Source of the DNA: Clostridia bacterium
GTDB taxonomy: Bacteria > Bacillota > Clostridia > Christensenellales > CAG-314
Direction: 5' to 3'
NCBI GenBank assembly: GCA_017629595.1
Contig: JAGBWW010000071.1
Coordinates: 1-38,642, forward strand
Length of the DNA stretch: 38,642 nt
Part shown: positions 1 through 38,642 of the stretch, piece by piece
How the letters are laid out: each line of letters begins with the position of its first letter
Position numbering within the stretch: position 1 is the first letter of the stretch
Made by a program: the position numbers and the translations under genes
The notes under the pieces: model-generated
The model's database searches: none
What the model was told of the DNA's origin: nothing
What the model saw: only the letters and a program-made list of their open reading frames with translations

Positions 1-41
1 ACCTGTACAAGTGTACACTTGTGCAGGTGTTTATTTTTTTG
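1..41 (+). terminator. Intrinsic terminator in left arm of the palindrome
   Basis: A 28-nt near-palindrome (1-28; ACCTGTACAAGTG paired with its complement) is followed by GTTTATTTTTTT. Read rightward this is a rho-independent terminator that would stop transcription entering from left of the window. Confidence 0.65.
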
Positions 42-258
42 GAGCAATTTAATTGACTGCCGAAAGGAAGTTTATATTCCCCACCACCGTGGGGGTAGGG
101 TGTTGGTAATATATATTATATAAGTAGTTTTCTTCCTTATATAATATATATTACCAATATCCTACCCCCACGGTGGTGGGGAATATAAACTTCCTTTCGG
201 CAGTCAATCAAATTGCTCCAAAAAATAAACACCTGCACAAGTGTACACTTGTACAGGT
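1..258. repeat. Near-perfect 258-bp inverted repeat (MITE-like palindrome)
   Basis: Bases 1-124 pair with 136-258 around an 11-base loop (125-135). I count one extra T in the left T-run, one A/C mismatch and two G/T pairs; everything else is Watson-Crick. Each arm has internal symmetry: a 28-bp near-palindrome at the outer tip (1-28 and 231-258), a CCCCAC-CACC-GTGGGG hairpin (79-94 and its mirror), and an AT-rich inner part. The outer tips are followed inward by T-runs, so each end is an intrinsic terminator. No ORF is present. Bases 259-260 could pair with bases before position 1, so the repeat may extend out of the window. It could be a non-autonomous mobile element, or a terminator pair duplicated in inverted orientation. 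No target-site duplication can be judged because the left flank is missing. Confidence 0.9.
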
Positions 259-260
259 GT
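219..260 (-). terminator. Intrinsic terminator of the M1 peptidase gene
   Basis: On the minus strand, about 10 nt after the TAA stop at 270-272, a 32-nt palindrome (ACACCTGTACAAG and its complement, 229-260) is followed by TTTATTTTTT. This serves the minus-strand peptidase gene and is also the right tip of the giant inverted repeat. Confidence 0.75.
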
Positions 261-269
261 TGCTTTTTG

Positions 270-1754
270 TTAGTCTTTCAATGGTACCAACTGATTTTGC
301 CCGTTGATATAACTATCAAAAAATCCCGCAATATCTGCTCCATAACTTGAAGAAAAACTTGCGCGCATCTCGTCGGGAGTGGCAATAGAAAGTTTGCAAT
401 CGTCAAAATATCTTTTTAAACAAGCGAAAAACTTTTCTTTGCCACAAGCGTCGTAAATAGAATTGAACATCAACGCACCTTTGACGTAGGTCATATAGAC
501 GTATCCTTGCTCGGTGTCAAACTTGTAAGAAGCACGCATTGTCGTGTCAAGTTTGCCAAGGTAGTCGGTCAATACGTTGACGTAGGTGGTGTAGTTTTTC
601 AAATATTTGCGCATGGACTCTTTCAAAGGAGTTTCTCCGCATTGGTCAAGATAAAGTTGAGTCAAAAATTCCACCAATCCTTCGTCTTGCCAAGGATTTT
701 CAATTTGGTCGCTTCCCACCAAGTTATAAAACCATTGGTGAATTGTTTCGTGTACCACCGTTTCAACGGGTGCCGAAGTTTCGCTGGATATGACCGAAAG
801 CATAGGGTATTCCATACCGCCAAAGCAAAAGTCGGCTTGTACCACGCTATAAGTGTCGTAAGGATAAGGCGCAATATTGTCGGAAAAATATTTCAAAGAA
901 GTTGTTGCAAAGGCAAGTGCTTTGCTTGGTTCTGCATCGTCAAAATAATAGTATTTTACGGCAATTCCATTTTCCGTTTGCGACAAAACCTTGAAGTCGG
1001 GCGATGTTACGATTGCAAAATCTCTAACAACGTCTGCTTCAATGGTGTAGGTTGTTATTTCATCGGTGGTGGAAGCAGACAAAACCGTGCCGGTGGAGGC
1101 AACAACAAAGTTGCTTGGCACAGCAAGTGTCACGTCAAAATTTGCCATCTCGCTGACAAACGGATCGCCGTATATATAATAAGGTGTATCAATCCAAGCC
1201 CCCGTCTGGTCCATGGCGCACAAAATAGGAAAGAAGTTGCCCAAGTTTACGGTATTTTCGCCCCAGCCCAATCTGTGTTTGACGTTTGCCAAAGACACTT
1301 GATAAACCATTTCCACCGTTACGCTTTCGTCAGGGTATAAGGTGGAAGAAAGTGGCACAATCAAAATGTCACAATCGGTCCCACCGATTTGGTAGGCAAT
1401 TGCCACGTCGTTCACCTTTACGCTGTCAAAGGCAATTTCGCCATAGCTTTGACCGTAGGCGTAGCACGATTGAACGTAGTTTTGCGAAACAATCAAATGT
1501 GATGCGTCTTGTCTATATGCGTTTGCGTAGATATGAAAATGCAAACTGTCCAAAGTGTTGGTGGTGTCGTTTCTAAATTCCACCGTTTGCACAGCGGAAA
1601 CAACGTGATTGACGTGGTCGTAAGACAAGCCCAAAGAATAATTTGCAAGTTTGTCTTTTTCTTGTTGAATATAATTTGTGTTGCAGGCGCACGTTGACAA
1701 AGTCAAAATTATGCAAAGCAAAACAAAAGCAATGGTTTTTCTCAATTTATTCAA
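270..1754 (-). CDS. M1-family zinc metallopeptidase lipoprotein
   Basis: A 494-aa gluzincin aminopeptidase-like protein, probably anchored to the outer face of the membrane. Residues 1-24 form a lipoprotein signal (basic N-terminus, hydrophobic stretch, Cys22 or Cys24 as lipidation site). Zinc site: HETIH at 335-339 and second glutamate E358 in NPWQDEG, which is exactly the HExxH-x18-E spacing of M1 enzymes. GGMEYP at 312-317 corresponds to the GAMEN-type substrate-binding motif. It is shorter than full aminopeptidase N (~850 aa) and lacks the large C-terminal helical domain, like other bacterial short M1 proteins. The start is TTG (1752-1754), chosen because AAGGGAGT lies about 8 nt upstream at 1763-1770; no good ATG exists nearby. 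It is divergent from the oligopeptide importer, suggesting supply of peptides for uptake (inference). True peptide specificity is unknown. Confidence 0.9.
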   Translation of the reverse strand: MNKLRKTIAFVLLCIILTLSTCACNTNYIQQEKDKLANYSLGLSYDHVNHVVSAVQTVEFRNDTTNTLDSLHFHIYANAYRQDASHLIVSQNYVQSCYAYGQSYGEIAFDSVKVNDVAIAYQIGGTDCDILIVPLSSTLYPDESVTVEMVYQVSLANVKHRLGWGENTVNLGNFFPILCAMDQTGAWIDTPYYIYGDPFVSEMANFDVTLAVPSNFVVASTGTVLSASTTDEITTYTIEADVVRDFAIVTSPDFKVLSQTENGIAVKYYYFDDAEPSKALAFATTSLKYFSDNIAPYPYDTYSVVQADFCFGGMEYPMLSVISSETSAPVETVVHETIHQWFYNLVGSDQIENPWQDEGLVEFLTQLYLDQCGETPLKESMRKYLKNYTTYVNVLTDYLGKLDTTMRASYKFDTEQGYVYMTYVKGALMFNSIYDACGKEKFFACLKRYFDDCKLSIATPDEMRASFSSSYGADIAGFFDSYINGQNQLVPLKD

Positions 1755-5497: not shown

Positions 5498-6460
5498 ATG
5501 GTAAAGTATATTTTAAAGAGAATTGCATTTGCATTGTTGACGTTTATGATTATCGTCTCCATTTGCTTTGTCCTCATTAAATTGTTACCCATTACAGATG
5601 CTGCCCAATTTGGTCAAGATGCCAGCGTCATTGAGACCAGAAGAAAATTGTTGGGCTATTATGATCCTATTCCCAAACAATACGTAACCTTCCTTACAAA
5701 GACATTGTTTGGTGGCGACTGGGGCGTAGGTGAGCAAATTTACCGTACGAAAGACGTATGGGAGATTTTCGTAGAGAAACTTCCTCCCACAATGCTTCTC
5801 AACGTTTACTCGATGGTTTTTGCAGTTCCTTTGGGTTTGGCCTTTGGTATTTACGCAGCGCTTAAAAAGAACAAGTGGCAAGACCACTTCATCTCTACTA
5901 GCGTTATGATTATCGTTTCCGTGCCCAGTTACGTTTACGCATTTTTGGTACAATACTTCTTGTGCTACAAATTGGGTTGGTTCCCCTTCTTGATGAAAGA
6001 AGGTACCGACTACTTGTCTTGGGACATGTTCGTATCCGTCGTCCCTGCAGTTTTGTCCTTGTCTTTTGGTACGATTGCAGGCCTTACAAGATACACACGT
6101 GCCGAATTGACCGAAGTTTTGACAAGCGACTTTATGTTGCTTGCTCGCACCAAAGGTTTGACCAAGGCACAAGCAACCACACGTCACGCATTGAAAAACG
6201 CAATGGTTCCCATCTTCCCTATGATTGTTGGCGAATTTATCGGCATCATCTCGGGTTCAATGATTATTGAAAGCATTTTCGGCGTACCCGGCGTAGGTGG
6301 TTTGTACATCAAATCCATCACAGGCAACCAAGGTAACCCTGACTACAACTTCTTTATGTTGTTGTCGTCCTTCTATACGTTGATCGGTTTGTTGTCCGGC
6401 ATTGTCATTGACTTGTCTTACGGCTTCATCGATCCCAGAATCAGAATGGGGGAAAGATAA
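5498..6460 (+). CDS. oppB: Oligopeptide ABC transporter permease
   Basis: A 320-aa inner-membrane subunit of the BPD_transp_1 family that forms half of the peptide channel. It opens with a short cytoplasmic stretch and TM1 (about residues 9-30) and has five or six hydrophobic segments. The cytoplasmic EAA coupling loop is visible as ARTKGLTKAQATTRHALKNAM, followed by the hallmark GVPGVGGLY near the C-terminus. Length is normal for OppB/DppB. The ATG at 5498 is preferred over an upstream in-frame GTG (5462) because AAGGAG lies at 5486-5491, 6 nt before it, and the resulting MVKYILKRI start matches the family. It is separated from oppC by a single base, so the two are translationally coupled. 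Confidence 0.93.
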   Translation: MVKYILKRIAFALLTFMIIVSICFVLIKLLPITDAAQFGQDASVIETRRKLLGYYDPIPKQYVTFLTKTLFGGDWGVGEQIYRTKDVWEIFVEKLPPTMLLNVYSMVFAVPLGLAFGIYAALKKNKWQDHFISTSVMIIVSVPSYVYAFLVQYFLCYKLGWFPFLMKEGTDYLSWDMFVSVVPAVLSLSFGTIAGLTRYTRAELTEVLTSDFMLLARTKGLTKAQATTRHALKNAMVPIFPMIVGEFIGIISGSMIIESIFGVPGVGGLYIKSITGNQGNPDYNFFMLLSSFYTLIGLLSGIVIDLSYGFIDPRIRMGER

Positions 6461-6461
6461 T

Positions 6462-6857
6462 ATGGCAAATAACACGTTTAATAAAAAGATTGCCGATATG
6501 GACAATCTCCCTATCATTGATAAAGAAAAATTTGAATTTGCACAACGTGATGGTGCAATTCGTGATACCAAATTGGAAACGAAACCCATTGGCTATTTAA
6601 AAGACGCAATGTCTCGTTTCAAAAAGAACAAAAGTTCCGTTGTTGCAGCGTTTATCATTTTGTTCTTGGTGATTTATGCAATTATTGTTCCCATTGCATT
6701 TGCAAACAACTACAACACAAGTTTGGGTGACAACCTTTTCTTGGAATACGGCAAATTGTTGCCCAAACAGATGCCTTTTTGTGGGCAGGCTGGGACGGAT
6801 GCAAAAACGTTGATTTGGGCGCAAACGACTACAACATCCGCCGTGCAATCGGTGTAG
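6462..6857 (+). CDS. oppC: Oligopeptide permease OppC, N-terminal fragment (frameshifted gene)
   Basis: 131 residues that begin at the ATG immediately after the oppB stop. They contain an OppC_N-type leader (FAQRDGAIRDTKLETKPIGY), a basic stretch and TM1 (SSVVAAFIILFLVIYAIIVP, about 66-85). The sequence stays natural to about KLLPK (nt ~6767), then becomes unrelated residues and stops at 6857. The rest of the permease continues without a break in the -1 frame (next entry). Restoring one base gives a single 543-aa protein over 6462-8092. The neighbouring opp genes are all intact, so this is either a recent lesion, a sequencing or assembly error, or a recoded gene. The part beyond nt ~6770 in this frame is unlikely to be meaningful. 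Confidence 0.85.
   Translation: MANNTFNKKIADMDNLPIIDKEKFEFAQRDGAIRDTKLETKPIGYLKDAMSRFKKNKSSVVAAFIILFLVIYAIIVPIAFANNYNTSLGDNLFLEYGKLLPKQMPFCGQAGTDAKTLIWAQTTTTSAVQSV
6731..6855 (+). other. Frameshift interval in oppC
   Basis: Both frames are open only in this interval. Adding an A to the AAA run at 6765-6767 would read LLPKTDAFLWAGWDG; adding a T to the TTTTT run at 6776-6780 would read KQMPFLWAGWDG. Either repairs the gene. I see no canonical X-XXY-YYZ slippery heptamer in the correct phase. Confidence 0.75.
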
Positions 6858-8092
6858 AAACAGGCCTCAGCCCCATTGTTGAAGCAGAAAAGTTTACTAC
6901 CGTTGACGAAACAAACGGCAAGACGTATACCAAATATCGTGTAAAGTTGGACACCTATTATGACCTTGGTATGTATATCATCGTCGTTGGCAAAGATGAT
7001 TACAAAGCAATCATGGCTTGGCAAGAAGAAAACGAAATCCAAGTAATCTTCCCTGCAGTTGACTACAAAGCACAAGAATCCACCAACGCACAAAGATTGA
7101 CGGAAAGAACGGCAAACATTTGGTACAAATGCAACGACAAAGGCGTCCCCACGTTGGATGCTGACGGCAATTTCCAACAAATCTACAAAATCAGCAATGG
7201 TTCTGACAACTACAGCAGTTTGCGCCTGCAAAGTGACCCCGGCAACTGGGCATATGCAGCAATCACAGGTGCAGCAAACATGGACGAAAACGGCAACATC
7301 ATTTACGATGCTGACGGTTTTCCCGAAGGTGGTGTAGCATACAAACTTCGCGTATGCAAATATACTTACTTCCAATATATCTATGGAATTGAACCTTCAT
7401 TTGTCTTTGGTACAAACAGTGTCGGTCAAGACATTTTCTACCGTTTGGCACAAGGCGCACAATTCTCCTTTATGTTGGCAGTCAGTGTTTCCGCAATCAA
7501 CTTGACAATCGGTGCAATCTACGGTGCAATCGAAGGTTACTTCGGTGGTGCAGCAGACATGCTCATGGAACGTATCAGAGACGTTTTGGGTGGAATTCCC
7601 TTCACGGTTTTGACGACGTTGTTCCAATTGCACTTTGCAGACAAAGTCGGTGTTGTCGGCGCACTGTTGTTCGCCTTCGTTGCAACCGGTTGGTTGGGCA
7701 TGGCAGGAACAGTCCGTATGCAGTTCTACAGATTCAAACACCAAGAATACGTTTTGTCTTCTCGCACGTTGGGTGCAAAGGATGCACGTATTATGTTCAA
7801 GCACATCTTCCCCAACGCATTGGGCACAATCGTAACAAGTTGCGTATTGGTTATTCCCGGCGTTATCTTCTCGGAAAGTTCCTTGACATACTTGGGTATC
7901 ATCAACTTGGAATCCAGCCGTTGGACAAGTGTAGGTACAATGTTGGCATTGGGTAGAGACTATTTGTCCAACTATCCTCACATTATTTTGTTCCCCGCAT
8001 TGTTCATCTCCATGCTTGAAATTTCATTCAACTTGTTCGGCAATGGTTTGCGTGACGCATTCAACCCGTCACTTCGTGGTTCGGAGGGTTAA
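6779..8092 (+). CDS. oppC: Oligopeptide permease OppC, main part (frameshifted gene)
   Basis: About 437 residues in the frame that continues the OppC fragment above. The TTG at 6779 is only the first possible initiator in this frame and has no ribosome site; the natural start is the ATG at 6462. The first ~190 residues are a hydrophilic segment that would lie outside the membrane between TM1 and TM2. After it come FGTNSVGQDIFYRLAQG, the conserved OppC entry motif, and then membrane segments of BPD_transp_1. The EAA loop is SRTLGAKDARIMFKHIFPNAL. The C-terminus (LEISFNLFGNGLRDAFNPSLRG) is the typical OppC/DppC ending. Restored length of ~543 aa exceeds the usual ~300-350 aa, mostly because of the extracytoplasmic insert. 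oppD starts 3 nt after the stop. Confidence 0.88.
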   Translation: MWAGWDGCKNVDLGANDYNIRRAIGVETGLSPIVEAEKFTTVDETNGKTYTKYRVKLDTYYDLGMYIIVVGKDDYKAIMAWQEENEIQVIFPAVDYKAQESTNAQRLTERTANIWYKCNDKGVPTLDADGNFQQIYKISNGSDNYSSLRLQSDPGNWAYAAITGAANMDENGNIIYDADGFPEGGVAYKLRVCKYTYFQYIYGIEPSFVFGTNSVGQDIFYRLAQGAQFSFMLAVSVSAINLTIGAIYGAIEGYFGGAADMLMERIRDVLGGIPFTVLTTLFQLHFADKVGVVGALLFAFVATGWLGMAGTVRMQFYRFKHQEYVLSSRTLGAKDARIMFKHIFPNALGTIVTSCVLVIPGVIFSESSLTYLGIINLESSRWTSVGTMLALGRDYLSNYPHIILFPALFISMLEISFNLFGNGLRDAFNPSLRGSEG

Positions 8093-8095
8093 AAT

Positions 8096-10351
8096 ATGGC
8101 AAAAGAAAAGAAACTTGAAGTTAAAGACCTTGTGGTGTCCTTCTCTACGGTGGACGGCAAGGTACAAGCAGTCCGTGACATTTCCTTTGACTTGCACAAA
8201 GGTGAAACTTTGGCAATCGTTGGCGAATCCGGCTCTGGTAAATCGGTAACAAGCAAAGCCATCATTGGTATTTCTTCCCCCAACGCATTGATTGAAAGTG
8301 GCGAAATTATTTACGACGGTCAAGACCTTTTGCGTATCACCGAAGAAGACTTCCACAAGATTCGTGGTGACAAAATCGCAATGATCTTCCAAGATCCCTT
8401 GTCCAGCCTCAACCCCATTGTAAAAATCGGTACGCAATTGACCGAAGCAATGATTTTGAAAAACAAGGCATCTAGAAAGAATTGCCGTAAAGAATTCAAC
8501 CAAATGCTTTCCGACTTGTTTGCAAACATAAACAAGGCAGAAAACAACGCCAACGTTGAAGAAAACAAAACGTTGGCAAAGAAATTTGACGAATTCAACA
8601 TCGTTGCAATTGACTTGGAAAACAAATACAACGCATCAGTTGTCGCAGGCGAAGAATATTTGCCCAACGCAGACGATTTGTTGCTTAAAGCAGAAAAAGG
8701 CGTAAAAGCCGATTTCGTCAAAATGTCCAAGTCGTTTGTAAAAGACTTTGCAAAATGCCAGCACGAATATTTCATCACAAAAGAAACAATTGCTCCCATC
8801 ATTGAAAAGGCAAAAGCAAACCACAACGATAAAAACGGTTTCTCTTTAGACGTTTTGGTAGAATGTGTAAAGGCGGGTAAAGAGGCGGTTTTGAATGCAC
8901 AAAAGTTGACAAAACCCAACTACTTTACAATCGGTTACTACGTTTACGCACACCCCGAAGACGACCTTTCCAAATACACGGTTGAAGAGTTGAACAAACT
9001 TTCCCGCAAAGTTTTGGACGATGAATTTATGCTTTCTTTCATTGACAAAGCAGTCATTGCAATGAAGCAATCGGACAAAGATTCTTGCCAAGGCAAACGC
9101 GATTTGATTGACCTTATTGCAAATCATCGCCACATCTTTGAAAAGGAAACTTTGGACAAAAAAGAATGTAGCGAAGCATACAAAACTCTTTGTGCTGGTG
9201 TAGAAGCATCCATTGACAAACTTGTCGTCGTAAAAGACAGTTTGGCATACACCTTCAAATACAGTTTCAAAGGTGCAATTGATAAGTATTTTGACGCAGT
9301 CAAAAATAATCCCAAAGAACAAGCCAAGTACGAAAAGAGCAAGGCACAATGGGAAAAATTGGCGTCAAAAGGTAAAACTCCCGATTGGAAAGTTACACCT
9401 CCTGCAATCATTGACTTGGAACTTACTCGCAAAACAATTTTGATGATTTTTGACCGTTTGGTTGCAAAATACGAAACGGCATTGCAAGACGAAGCCTATG
9501 ATTATCAACAAGGCGCATTAAATCTTGTAGAATTCTTCAAAGAAAAAGCTCGTGGTGTTGTTGACGTTGTCACACCTGCACGCGCAAGAGCAAAAGCATT
9601 AAAATTGATGGAAGAAGTCGGTATCCCCGAACCTGCAGCACGTTTCAAACAATACCCCTTTGAATTTTCCGGTGGTATGCGTCAAAGAATCGTTATTGCA
9701 ATCGCATTGGCAGCCAACCCCGACATCCTTATCTGTGACGAACCCACAACTGCATTGGACGTAACAATCCAAGCCCAAATCTTGGAATTGATCAACCGTA
9801 TCAAAGCAGAAAGAAACTTGTCTATCATCTTCATCACACACGACTTGGGTGTTGTTGCAAACATGGCAGACAGAATTGCCGTTATGTACGCAGGTAAAAT
9901 CGTTGAATACGGCACGGATAAAGACATTTTCTACAATCCCAAACATCCTTACACGTGGGCACTTTTGGCATCAATGCCCGACTTGGAAACAAAGGAAAAA
10001 TTGGAAGCAATCCCCGGCACGCCTCCCAATATGATTTTCCCTCCTATTGGCGATGCATTTGCAGCAAGAAACAAACATGCTTTGAAGATTGACTTCGAAC
10101 AACAACCTCCTTTGTTCAAAATTAACGATGACCACTATGCAGCAACGTGGTTGTTGCACCCTGACGCACCCAAGGTTGACCCTCCTCGTATCGTTACACA
10201 ACGTATCGCACGTATGAAGGCAAAAAATCAAGAGTTGCAAAGGGTTGCAAACATAGAAGAAGTTGCAACAGCAGTGGAAGAAAAACCTGCAAAAAAAGCT
10301 CCTGCAAAAAAGGCAAGCAAAAAAACTGAAGAAAAGGGAGGTAATCAATAA
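8096..10351 (+). CDS. oppD: Oligopeptide ABC transporter ATPase OppD with ~350-aa insertion
   Basis: A 751-aa cytoplasmic ATPase that powers peptide import with OppF. Walker A GESGSGKS 43-50, Q-loop MIFQDPLSSLNP with Q99, signature SGGMRQ 525-530, Walker B ILICDEP 544-550, switch His582. Normal OppD is ~330-350 aa. Here ~350 Lys/Glu-rich, mostly helical-looking residues (about 135-490) interrupt the helical subdomain between Q-loop and signature, while all catalytic motifs remain. The C-terminal oligo_HPY domain is present (NPKHPYTWALLASMPDLE), but the Cys cluster (CPFAPRC-type) seen in many relatives is replaced (GDAFAARNKHA), so no Fe-S site is expected. The tail 724-751 is Lys/Ala-rich (KPAKKAPAKKASKK). 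The ATG follows the oppC stop by 3 nt; the stop overlaps the oppF ATG by 1 nt. Confidence 0.93.
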   Translation: MAKEKKLEVKDLVVSFSTVDGKVQAVRDISFDLHKGETLAIVGESGSGKSVTSKAIIGISSPNALIESGEIIYDGQDLLRITEEDFHKIRGDKIAMIFQDPLSSLNPIVKIGTQLTEAMILKNKASRKNCRKEFNQMLSDLFANINKAENNANVEENKTLAKKFDEFNIVAIDLENKYNASVVAGEEYLPNADDLLLKAEKGVKADFVKMSKSFVKDFAKCQHEYFITKETIAPIIEKAKANHNDKNGFSLDVLVECVKAGKEAVLNAQKLTKPNYFTIGYYVYAHPEDDLSKYTVEELNKLSRKVLDDEFMLSFIDKAVIAMKQSDKDSCQGKRDLIDLIANHRHIFEKETLDKKECSEAYKTLCAGVEASIDKLVVVKDSLAYTFKYSFKGAIDKYFDAVKNNPKEQAKYEKSKAQWEKLASKGKTPDWKVTPPAIIDLELTRKTILMIFDRLVAKYETALQDEAYDYQQGALNLVEFFKEKARGVVDVVTPARARAKALKLMEEVGIPEPAARFKQYPFEFSGGMRQRIVIAIALAANPDILICDEPTTALDVTIQAQILELINRIKAERNLSIIFITHDLGVVANMADRIAVMYAGKIVEYGTDKDIFYNPKHPYTWALLASMPDLETKEKLEAIPGTPPNMIFPPIGDAFAARNKHALKIDFEQQPPLFKINDDHYAATWLLHPDAPKVDPPRIVTQRIARMKAKNQELQRVANIEEVATAVEEKPAKKAPAKKASKKTEEKGGNQ

Positions 10352-11583
10352 TGGAAGAAAACAAACAAGTAATCTTAAAAGTTGAAAACCTTTCCCAATA
10401 CTTCAAAATGGGCAAACGTTATCTCAAAGCAGTTGACCACGTAAGTTTTGAAATCAACAAAGGCGAAGTTTTCGGTTTGGTTGGCGAATCCGGTTGTGGC
10501 AAAACGACCACAGGCCGTACAATTATCAAATTGTACAACGCAACAGGTGGCAACGTTTATTTTGAAGGACAACGTATCGTTGCAGGTATTCACGACTACA
10601 AGGAAGCAATCAAAGTTGCAAAAGAAGCTTACAAAGCAAAAGTTCAACAAGGCATTGCAACCGAACAAGACAAAATTGAATTGGCTGAAGAAGTCAGTAA
10701 ACAACGTGAAAACATCAAAAAGGCAAAGTACGATCACAAATATTGCAACCGTGACCATGCTCGCAAGTGTGTTCAAGAATTGGACGAAAAATGGCTACCC
10801 ATTTTGCAAAAAGCCCAATTGAAACATGGTGTAGGCAGTGACGAATACAAAAAGTTGCATGCCCAATACAAACACGACAGACGCGTTGCAAAAAACGAAC
10901 GTATCGTCAACAAAATTCAAATGATTTTCCAAGACCCCATTGGTTCACTTGACCCTCGTATGACAGTTCGCGAAATCATTTCCGAAGGTTTGGTCATCAA
11001 AGGTGTCAAAGACAAGGAACTCATCGACCAACAAGTTTACGACGTTTTGGAAAAGGTCGGTTTGGTTGCACAACACGCCAACCGTTACCCTCACGAATTT
11101 TCTGGTGGTCAACGTCAACGTATTGGTGTTGCAAGAAGCATCATTATGAAGCCCGACATCATCATTGCAGACGAACCTGTCTCTGCATTGGACGTTTCAA
11201 TTCAAGCACAAGTCATCAACCTTTTGAACGAATTGCGTCACGAAATGGGCTTGACGATTTTGTTCGTTGCTCACGACTTGTCCGTTGTCAAATACTTCTC
11301 CGACAAAATCGGCGTTATGTATTACGGCAAAATGGTAGAACTTGCAACAAGTGAAGAATTGTTTGCACACCCTTGCCACCCTTACACAAAGGCATTGCTC
11401 TCTGCAATTCCCTTGCCCGACCCCGATTACGAAAAGACACGTACACGTATTGTTTACAATCCTTTGCGTGACCACGATTATCGTACGGAAGGTCCCACAA
11501 TGCAAGAAGTTGCACCCGGTCACTTTGTACTTTGCAACAGCGAAGAAAAAGCAAGATTTATCAAAGAAATTGAAGGCAAATGA
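10351..11583 (+). CDS. oppF: Oligopeptide ABC transporter ATPase OppF with ~110-aa insertion
   Basis: A 410-aa second ATPase of the peptide importer. Walker A GESGCGKT 45-52, Q-loop [12 protein letters not shown] with Q194, signature SGGQRQR 251-257, Walker B IIIADEP 270-276, switch His308. About 110 charged, coiled-coil-like residues (76-185) sit between the first beta-sheet element and the Q-loop, where OppF usually has only ~20. The position differs from the OppD insertion, which lies after the Q-loop. The C-terminal [12 protein letters not shown] segment is the oligo_HPY motif. The ATG overlaps the oppD stop by one base (TAATG), preceded by GGGAGGT. The TGA stop overlaps the next ATG (ATGA), so the DUF3899 gene is coupled to it. 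Confidence 0.93.
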
Positions 11584-36903: not shown

Positions 36904-38508
36904 ATGAAGACTCAAAAAGTATCTCTCAAAAACAAACTTGCCTTTGGTGCAGGGGACATATTTGGTGGTGGTTCTTTCAACGTCATCAACTTTTTGTTTA
37001 CCACCTTTTTGTCGTTGGTGGTAGGTTTGCCCATGATTTGGGTAAGTGCCATCTTGCTTTTGACAAAGGTGTTTGACGGCATAATTGACCCTTTCATCGG
37101 TGCAATCACCGACGGAACACAACCCAAAAGGTTTGGCAAAAGACGCAAATACATACTTATTTTTGCCCCTATTATGTACGTTTGTTTTGTGTTGTTGTTT
37201 TTCCCTTGGAACTTGGTTACAACAAGCGTTCCATTGAAAGTGGCACTTGTCATTTTCGTTTACGTTTTGTACGCCACAAGTCAATCTTTCATTTTGATTC
37301 CCTACTATTCGTTGGCAAGCGAAATGACGGACGACTTTGACGAGCGCAACAAAGTAAGTGCCGTTCGTGTTGCTTTTTCAATTATATCTTCCCTTGTTTG
37401 TGTTGCCGTACCCGGCTCCATTGCAAACCCTTCACAAGCAGCAAACGACGGTGGTTTGTGCTATATTGTGATGTCGGTCATTTTTGGTGGGATTTTTTGT
37501 TTGTCTTTGATTATTTGTGGACTTTTCTCCAAAGAACAAATTGTCACCCCTGCAATAAAACGGAAAATAACACTCAAAGAATTTTTCAAACCCTTAAAAC
37601 TTAGAACCTATCGCAACTATTTGGGAATGCAACTTTGCGCATCAATGTCAATGGCAATTATTTCTTCTTTCTTCTTCATTTATTGCGATTTTTACCTTAG
37701 ACGAGATACCTACTTGCTCACCACAATGCACGGTGCAGGTCGTTTCCCCATTGGAACGGTTGCAGCAGCCGGTATGTTCGTTGCCCAAGCCATTGCACTT
37801 GTTTTTTACGTTTGGCTCATCAAAAAGACCAACAAAAAGACGGCATACGTTTTATCGGCAACCTTTTGGTCGGCAATGTTGCTTCTTTTGTTTTTGCTAC
37901 CTGCCGAAACGTCTGGAACGGCACAGCTTGTCAACGGCTTTGTAACAACGACGAGTGGCGTACCCAATTGGTTGATTATTATTTTGGGCTTGGTAATGGG
38001 CATTGCGTTGTGTGGTTGTGTGTACGTCCCCCACAGTTCGGTTGGTGACGTTGCCAACGTTGGACAGTTGTACTTTGGCGAGCGCACCGAAGGAGCATTT
38101 TCGGGGTTGACCAACTTCCTCAACACCACGGCACAAGCCGTTGGTTTGGCAATTCCACCTTTTATTATGAGCTTTGCCGGATATAAAGAAACCACTTACG
38201 TTTCCGTTGAAGAATACCTTGCCCAGCAAAGTTATTATGACTCCATTTACAAGGCAACGGTTGGACAAAACGTTCAACTTGTACCCTTGGCGCAAGGCGA
38301 CATGGCGCAATTTGCAATAAGGCTTGCCATAACTTTGCTTCCCATCGTAATTTTGTTGGTTGGCGTATTTATTGCCACACGTTATCGTCTTACAAAACAA
38401 GCGCAAGAGCAAATTGTTTCCTTGTGCAACGACCAAACACAACAAGAGTTTGGCCAACAAAAGAAAGCCCTTTTGCAATATCTTGGCGAAGACGTTTCAA
38501 AATTCTAA
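36904..38508 (+). CDS. GPH-family sugar:cation symporter (MelB-like)
   Basis: A 534-aa membrane transporter of the glycoside-pentoside-hexuronide:cation family with about 12 hydrophobic segments. NKLAFGAGDIFGGGSFN is the typical start. The loop KVFDGIIDPFIGAITDGTQPKRFGKRRKY matches the conserved 'D...DP..G...D.T..R.GKRRP' motif, and a later FGERTEGAFSGLTNF loop is the second family block. Length is a little above the usual 450-500 aa because of inserts such as one near 455-480. ATG 36904 is chosen for AAGGAG (36890-36895) and the promoter position. The sugar is not predictable. Own transcription unit. Confidence 0.9.
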   Translation: MKTQKVSLKNKLAFGAGDIFGGGSFNVINFLFTTFLSLVVGLPMIWVSAILLLTKVFDGIIDPFIGAITDGTQPKRFGKRRKYILIFAPIMYVCFVLLFFPWNLVTTSVPLKVALVIFVYVLYATSQSFILIPYYSLASEMTDDFDERNKVSAVRVAFSIISSLVCVAVPGSIANPSQAANDGGLCYIVMSVIFGGIFCLSLIICGLFSKEQIVTPAIKRKITLKEFFKPLKLRTYRNYLGMQLCASMSMAIISSFFFIYCDFYLRRDTYLLTTMHGAGRFPIGTVAAAGMFVAQAIALVFYVWLIKKTNKKTAYVLSATFWSAMLLLLFLLPAETSGTAQLVNGFVTTTSGVPNWLIIILGLVMGIALCGCVYVPHSSVGDVANVGQLYFGERTEGAFSGLTNFLNTTAQAVGLAIPPFIMSFAGYKETTYVSVEEYLAQQSYYDSIYKATVGQNVQLVPLAQGDMAQFAIRLAITLLPIVILLVGVFIATRYRLTKQAQEQIVSLCNDQTQQEFGQQKKALLQYLGEDVSKF

Positions 38509-38513
38509 ACTAC

Positions 38514-38545
38514 AAAAAGAACAGTCAATTGACTGTTCTTTTTAT
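38514..38545. terminator. Terminator after the symporter gene
   Basis: AAAAAGAACAGTCAA pairs with TTGACTGTTCTTTTT: perfect palindrome with T-run, 5 nt after the stop. Confidence 0.88.
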
Positions 38546-38558
38546 TTTTATTTAACAC

Positions 38559-38587
38559 TTGTTAAGTATTTTGAAATATGGTATAAT
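38559..38587 (+). promoter_or_regulatory. Promoter of the gene entering the right edge
   Basis: -35 TTGTTA (38559-38564), 17-bp spacer, consensus -10 TATAAT (38582-38587). Predicted start near 38594, followed by a short leader with CGGAGG. Confidence 0.75.
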
Positions 38588-38608
38588 AAGTCAAACGGAG
38601 GTTTTCCT

Positions 38609-38642
38609 ATGGCAAAAAAGAGAATTGGCGCATTTGAAGTGC
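38609..38642 (+). CDS. Partial unknown gene cut by window end
   Basis: ATG at 38609 with CGGAGG 8-9 nt upstream and a consensus promoter before it. Only MAKKRIGAFEV is visible, too little to assign a family. Confidence 0.6.
   Translation, partial: MAKKRIGAFEV

Follow-up and report, generated by a model that had tools for sequence, protein, structure and literature searches.

The locus and its flanking genes

The DNA analysed here (the window, 38,642 bases) makes up the entire contig C57 in a 90-contig, 1.08-Mb draft metagenome genome of a Clostridia bacterium. A near-perfect palindrome of 258 bases, lying in intergenic DNA, opens this contig. The palindrome starts at base 1 of C57, leaving its left biological boundary out of view, and is followed on the right by a gene for an M1-family peptidase lipoprotein. 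The coordinates of these features are collected in Table 1.

Table 1. Features of the palindrome and its right flank, in window coordinates.
Feature	Position	Strand	Remarks
Left arm	1..124	+	Apparently an added, inverted duplicate of the right arm; truncated on its outer side where the contig ends
39-nt word, exact reverse complement of 220-258	1..39	.	Matches a MEGAHIT k in length; interpreted as a de Bruijn junction word
Left-tip hairpin, then GTTTATTTTTTT	1..28	+	Terminator-like; fold -17.6 kcal/mol
11-nt loop TAGTTTTCTTC	125..135	.	With 133-151 colinear to the congener's spacer just past the ligT terminator
Right arm	136..258	+	Copy apparently in its ancestral place, directly adjoining the M1-peptidase gene
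Right-tip hairpin AACACCTGTACAAGTGTACACTTGTGCAGGTGTT (228-261) plus TATTTTTT	220..261	-	Likely M1-peptidase intrinsic terminator; fold -26.8 kcal/mol, z -6.7
M1-family peptidase lipoprotein gene	270..1754	-	Pfam PF01433; 3' end faces the palindrome

The region to the left of the palindrome was located by synteny. The sole congener compared was G001 (contig JAFQWS010000012.1, 9,609 bases), from the goat-colon MAG Clostridia bacterium RGIG2220, with 77% protein identity. In G001 the M1-peptidase and ligT genes are convergent, and the 291-nt spacer between them has ordinary terminators and no giant palindrome. The ligT orthologue of the genome under study, encoding a LigT-type RNA 2',3'-cyclic phosphodiesterase, is found at positions 51-590 of contig C21, which starts 50 nt past the ligT stop codon, immediately beyond a terminator hairpin and a T7 run. 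Taken together, the gene order of the congener and the position of ligT at the start of C21 indicate that C21 and C57 flank a single convergent ligT-M1 spacer. The two contigs share no overlap, and the left arm is without a physical join to ligT. Directly upstream of ligT, the congener encodes a coiled-coil, SMC/Rad50-like protein of 1077 aa (L035:2769-6002), with no Pfam match and only weak SMC matches.

Arm differences and folding of the palindrome

When positions 136-258 were reverse-complemented and aligned to 1-124, the two arms differed by one indel and three substitutions, with an arm-to-arm identity of 97.6%. This confirmed the anatomy given in the original prediction, namely two arms with one indel and three mismatched positions around an 11-nt loop. 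The indel is a difference of T7 versus T6 at positions 34-40, and the substitutions, which fall at A51, G99 and G101 (left-arm letters), are all A/G transitions. The minimum free energy of the plus-strand RNA was -218.9 kcal/mol, as compared to -69.1 ± 5.1 kcal/mol for 200 dinucleotide shuffles. The resulting z of -29 places the fold far past chance.

Such an extreme folding energy would be consistent with a conserved RNA or DNA hairpin maintained by structural selection, whether as a regulatory RNA, an RNase III target or a replication/cruciform signal. We consider this highly improbable, as the hairpin is not conserved in the congener and a search of Rfam returned only eukaryotic microRNA models. 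These models scored below their gathering thresholds and were set aside as a by-product of the long hairpin. Two of the mismatched positions had also been proposed to hint at selection on RNA, being paired as G/U in the plus-strand RNA. This argument fails, and the apparent bias is an effect of the strand chosen: each A/G difference between the arms reads as G.U in the RNA of one strand and as A.C in that of the other, giving two G.U pairs on the plus strand and one on the minus strand. G.U pairing at two of the three differences on the plus strand is the chance expectation, and these pairs therefore carry no weight.

Terminator-like elements at both tips

The tips of the palindrome had been described as inward-facing terminators, each made up of a 28-nt palindrome and a T-run. 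The form of these elements is borne out, with both 28-nt palindromes present and their T-runs facing inward, but the palindromes are imperfect. At the right tip, the minus strand carries a G+C-containing stem with the T-run TATTTTTT at once after it, downstream of the stop codon of the M1 gene. These are the attributes of an intrinsic terminator and, judged from its sequence, the right tip is likely to be that of the peptidase gene. Its stem spans 228-261, which is 3 nt past what the left side can show. At the left tip, a stem and a T-run are both present on the plus strand, with the join to ligT unassembled. Transcription may terminate at these tips.

The arrangement resembles a bidirectional intrinsic terminator of convergent genes in that a perfect or near-perfect stem with A/T-run flanks lies between two 3' ends. 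However, a terminator with ~95 nt of spacer is present here twice, head to head.

Colinearity of the right half with the congener

We compared the palindrome with the ligT-M1 spacer of G001. The 19 nt at window positions 133-151 match this spacer exactly, and the sequence from position 124 on reads GTAGTTTTCTTCC. When the end of C21 was joined to C57:124-175, the alignment to the G001 spacer scored 78, as against 40 for the right half alone, a score that was itself reached by 1 of 500 shuffles. Inserting a gap between the two contigs gave scores of 81 at 1 nt and 68 at 10 nt, with the score dropping once the gap exceeded one base. This colinearity suggests that the loop and the right arm are in the ancestral position, and that the left arm is an extra copy added in inverted orientation. 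With one congener as the basis, the arms thus appear as they should after an inverted duplication, one being ancestral and the other absent from the relative.

Copy number and mobility

The palindrome is single-copy in its own genome. No copy was found in 100 relatives, the congener included, or in the plasmids and phages searched, and no exact match to its core was present in the viral and GTDB contig collections. The sole match in the 100 relatives, 26 nt long (E = 8e-4), lies in another family and covers the AT-rich loop region. A scan of 993 kb in 113 sampled stretches, taken from this genome and its relatives (~680 kb of the source genome was sampled), detected no other inverted repeat whose arms are 30 nt or longer and 85% or more paired. 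Within the draft genome, four short contigs (C12, C13, C33 and C39) read as all N.

These results bear on the proposal that the palindrome is a mobile element of the MITE type, inserting downstream of genes and providing them with terminators. Its terminal inverted repeats and the terminators at both tips would suit such an element, but the multiple dispersed copies that define MITEs, like the many copies per genome of REP/BIME-type repeats, were absent from the collections listed above. The left flank, at which one side of a target-site duplication would be expected, lies beyond the contig end. Moreover, no foreign insert need be invoked, given that the right half aligns colinearly with the spacer of the congener and that its tip appears to serve the adjacent gene. 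We regard a MITE-like origin as exceedingly improbable. For the case of a single copy, the original prediction had named a local duplication of a terminator, and a local inverted duplication fits best.

A probable assembly junction at base 1

MEGAHIT assembles with a list of k values, and k-length words are common to the ends of its contigs (PMC10914622). Among 61 sampled contigs, the exact words shared between contig ends and other places included lengths of 39, 79, 99, 119 (three times) and 141 nt, all of them MEGAHIT k values. With the junction at the palindrome left out, 11 junctions had words of at least 30 nt, and 6 of them matched the list (binomial p = 5.5e-6). A ruminant MAG study whose isolate naming matches that of the congener used MEGAHIT for assembly and binned contigs above 1.5 kb (PMC8199421), and the present genome presumably comes from a study of the same kind. 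The 39-nt word common to both tips, together with these overlaps of the MEGAHIT type, indicates that base 1 is probably an assembly junction and no biological edge. We read the T7/T6 difference between the arms as the cause of the graph junction. Loss of coverage alone was rejected as the cause of the contig end, for it leaves the exact 39-nt word unexplained.

De Bruijn assembly was simulated on a small scale. Given full coverage and an unrelated left flank, the palindrome was assembled without a break at k = 59 or more, and at k = 59 a full fold-back extended outward by another 20 nt. C57 shows neither outcome, and the depth at the left tip must therefore have been low. Such depth is consistent with either a hairpin that sequences poorly or chimeric molecules of low abundance.

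The left arm could be false, an outcome that the original prediction had listed as its own refutation. It would then have arisen at the ligT-terminator hairpin as an assembly or library artefact, either from fold-back chimeric reads or through the pairing of strands from nearly identical molecules that belong to co-occurring strains. The true spacer would then run colinearly from the T-run of C21 (TTTTTTT) directly into GTAGTTTTCTTCCTTATATAA, the loop and the right arm, without the left arm. We take this possibility seriously while thinking it somewhat improbable. An artefact of this kind is expected where a contig ends in a graph junction, and the palindrome lies in such a place: it begins exactly at base 1, exactly one MEGAHIT k (39) is common to both tips, and other junctions of the assembly follow the same k list. 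In addition, C21 ends precisely where colinearity with the loop would resume, and strain-variant duplicates with 92-99% identity, a range that spans the 97.6% of the arms, end many contigs of the same assembly. Library-made chimeric short reads that carry inverted repeats and palindromes with mismatched bases have been documented in human DNA (PMC10908179), and, like the palindrome, place an inverted copy where a fragment or contig ends, in the vicinity of natural hairpins.

A simple fold-back, however, would yield identical arms, whereas the arms here differ at four sites. Ordinary colinear molecules should also have broken C57 at the loop and left C21 sharing at least 21 nt with it, and neither was seen. 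In the sampled contigs there was no path linking the T-run of C21 to the loop, as the unduplicated version would give, and no similar fold-back occurred in the 113 stretches (~1 Mb). A mixture of strains alone, without chimeric molecules, was rejected because the colinear sequence of neither strain holds the arm-loop-arm join. A read-through of a covalently closed hairpin telomere was likewise set aside, as the arms differ, the window carries core ribosomal-protein genes and the gene order at its flank carries on in a second contig.

Strain variants that were assembled alongside each other are seen at the other end of the window, where 38221-38642 overlaps positions 15156-15577 of C1 with 98.3% identity over 422 nt. 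Similar overlaps, with 93-99% identity, were found at the ends of C10/C34, C16/C47, C29/C32, C40/C59 and C6/C58.

A proposed local inverted duplication beside the ligT terminator

With modest confidence, we favour the interpretation that the palindrome is a single, local and fairly recent inverted duplication of the terminator-bearing spacer between the convergent ligT and M1-peptidase genes. The three substitutions and one indel between the arms exceed the differences expected from the copying of one molecule, which argues for a real duplication. On the other side, the left arm is backed by one contig end, cut at the k = 39 junction, and no other large palindrome was present in the ~1 Mb sampled.

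The original spacer would have consisted of the ligT terminator, a short AT-rich stretch (TAGTTTTCTTCCTTATATAATATATAT), the right arm and the peptidase terminator, in that order. A polymerase may have stalled at the hairpin of the ligT terminator, allowing the nascent strand to snap back and switch templates beside it. Approximately 124 nt, including the peptidase terminator, would then have been copied in inverted orientation before synthesis returned to the original template, and the arms would later have drifted by three transitions and a one-base change in the T-run. The right tip would end peptidase transcripts. The left arm is presumed to lie in the chromosome, and its tip, should it really adjoin C21, could act as a second, back-up stop for read-through from ligT. 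Any read-through RNA would be predicted to fold as one very long hairpin.

Quasi-palindromes formed by template switching (snap-back replication) share with this locus an inverted duplication, a short loop and an adjoining hairpin-forming stall site. The arms here, at ~124 nt, are unusually long for a bacterial spacer, and template switching is proposed as their origin. The palindrome is confirmed as a sequence feature that is ordinary in kind and located at an assembly break, and it represents no new class of element. If real, it shows in nature an inverted duplication that arose next to a terminator hairpin. If it is an artefact, it cautions that conspicuous palindromes where metagenome contigs end can be products of de Bruijn junctions.

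SbcC and the tolerance of long palindromes

In Escherichia coli, SbcCD cleaves a 246-bp interrupted palindrome during every replication cycle (PMC3315005). That palindrome is similar to the present one in its size and short interruption, and forms a lagging-strand hairpin that is the substrate for cleavage, but it was engineered in lacZ, whereas the one described here would be natural if real and lies in a genome without a recognisable SbcC. The SbcC model TIGR00618 had no match in the source genome or in family members G001-G005 and G010, while all 14 controls were matched. The lack of a recognisable SbcC makes it possible, and not implausible, that a long palindrome is tolerated, but proves nothing. 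A stronger proposal would be that a genuine chromosomal palindrome of the 250-nt class is stably kept as a double, mirror-image terminator module, tolerated since this small-genome lineage lost canonical SbcC. We consider this proposal quite improbable. A real palindrome in a lineage without detectable SbcC would nevertheless invite a survey of long palindromes among SbcC-less genomes. A 341-aa SbcD-type phosphoesterase is encoded in C84 (L149:1501-2526), with a score below the cut-off.

Elsewhere in the window, the gene at 8096-10351 encodes an oligopeptide-type ABC transporter ATPase of 751 aa, in which, by eye, the Walker A region and the signature motif appear to be separated by an insertion of several hundred residues. 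The transporter genes beside it, at 6402-8092 and 10351-11583, also look enlarged by eye.
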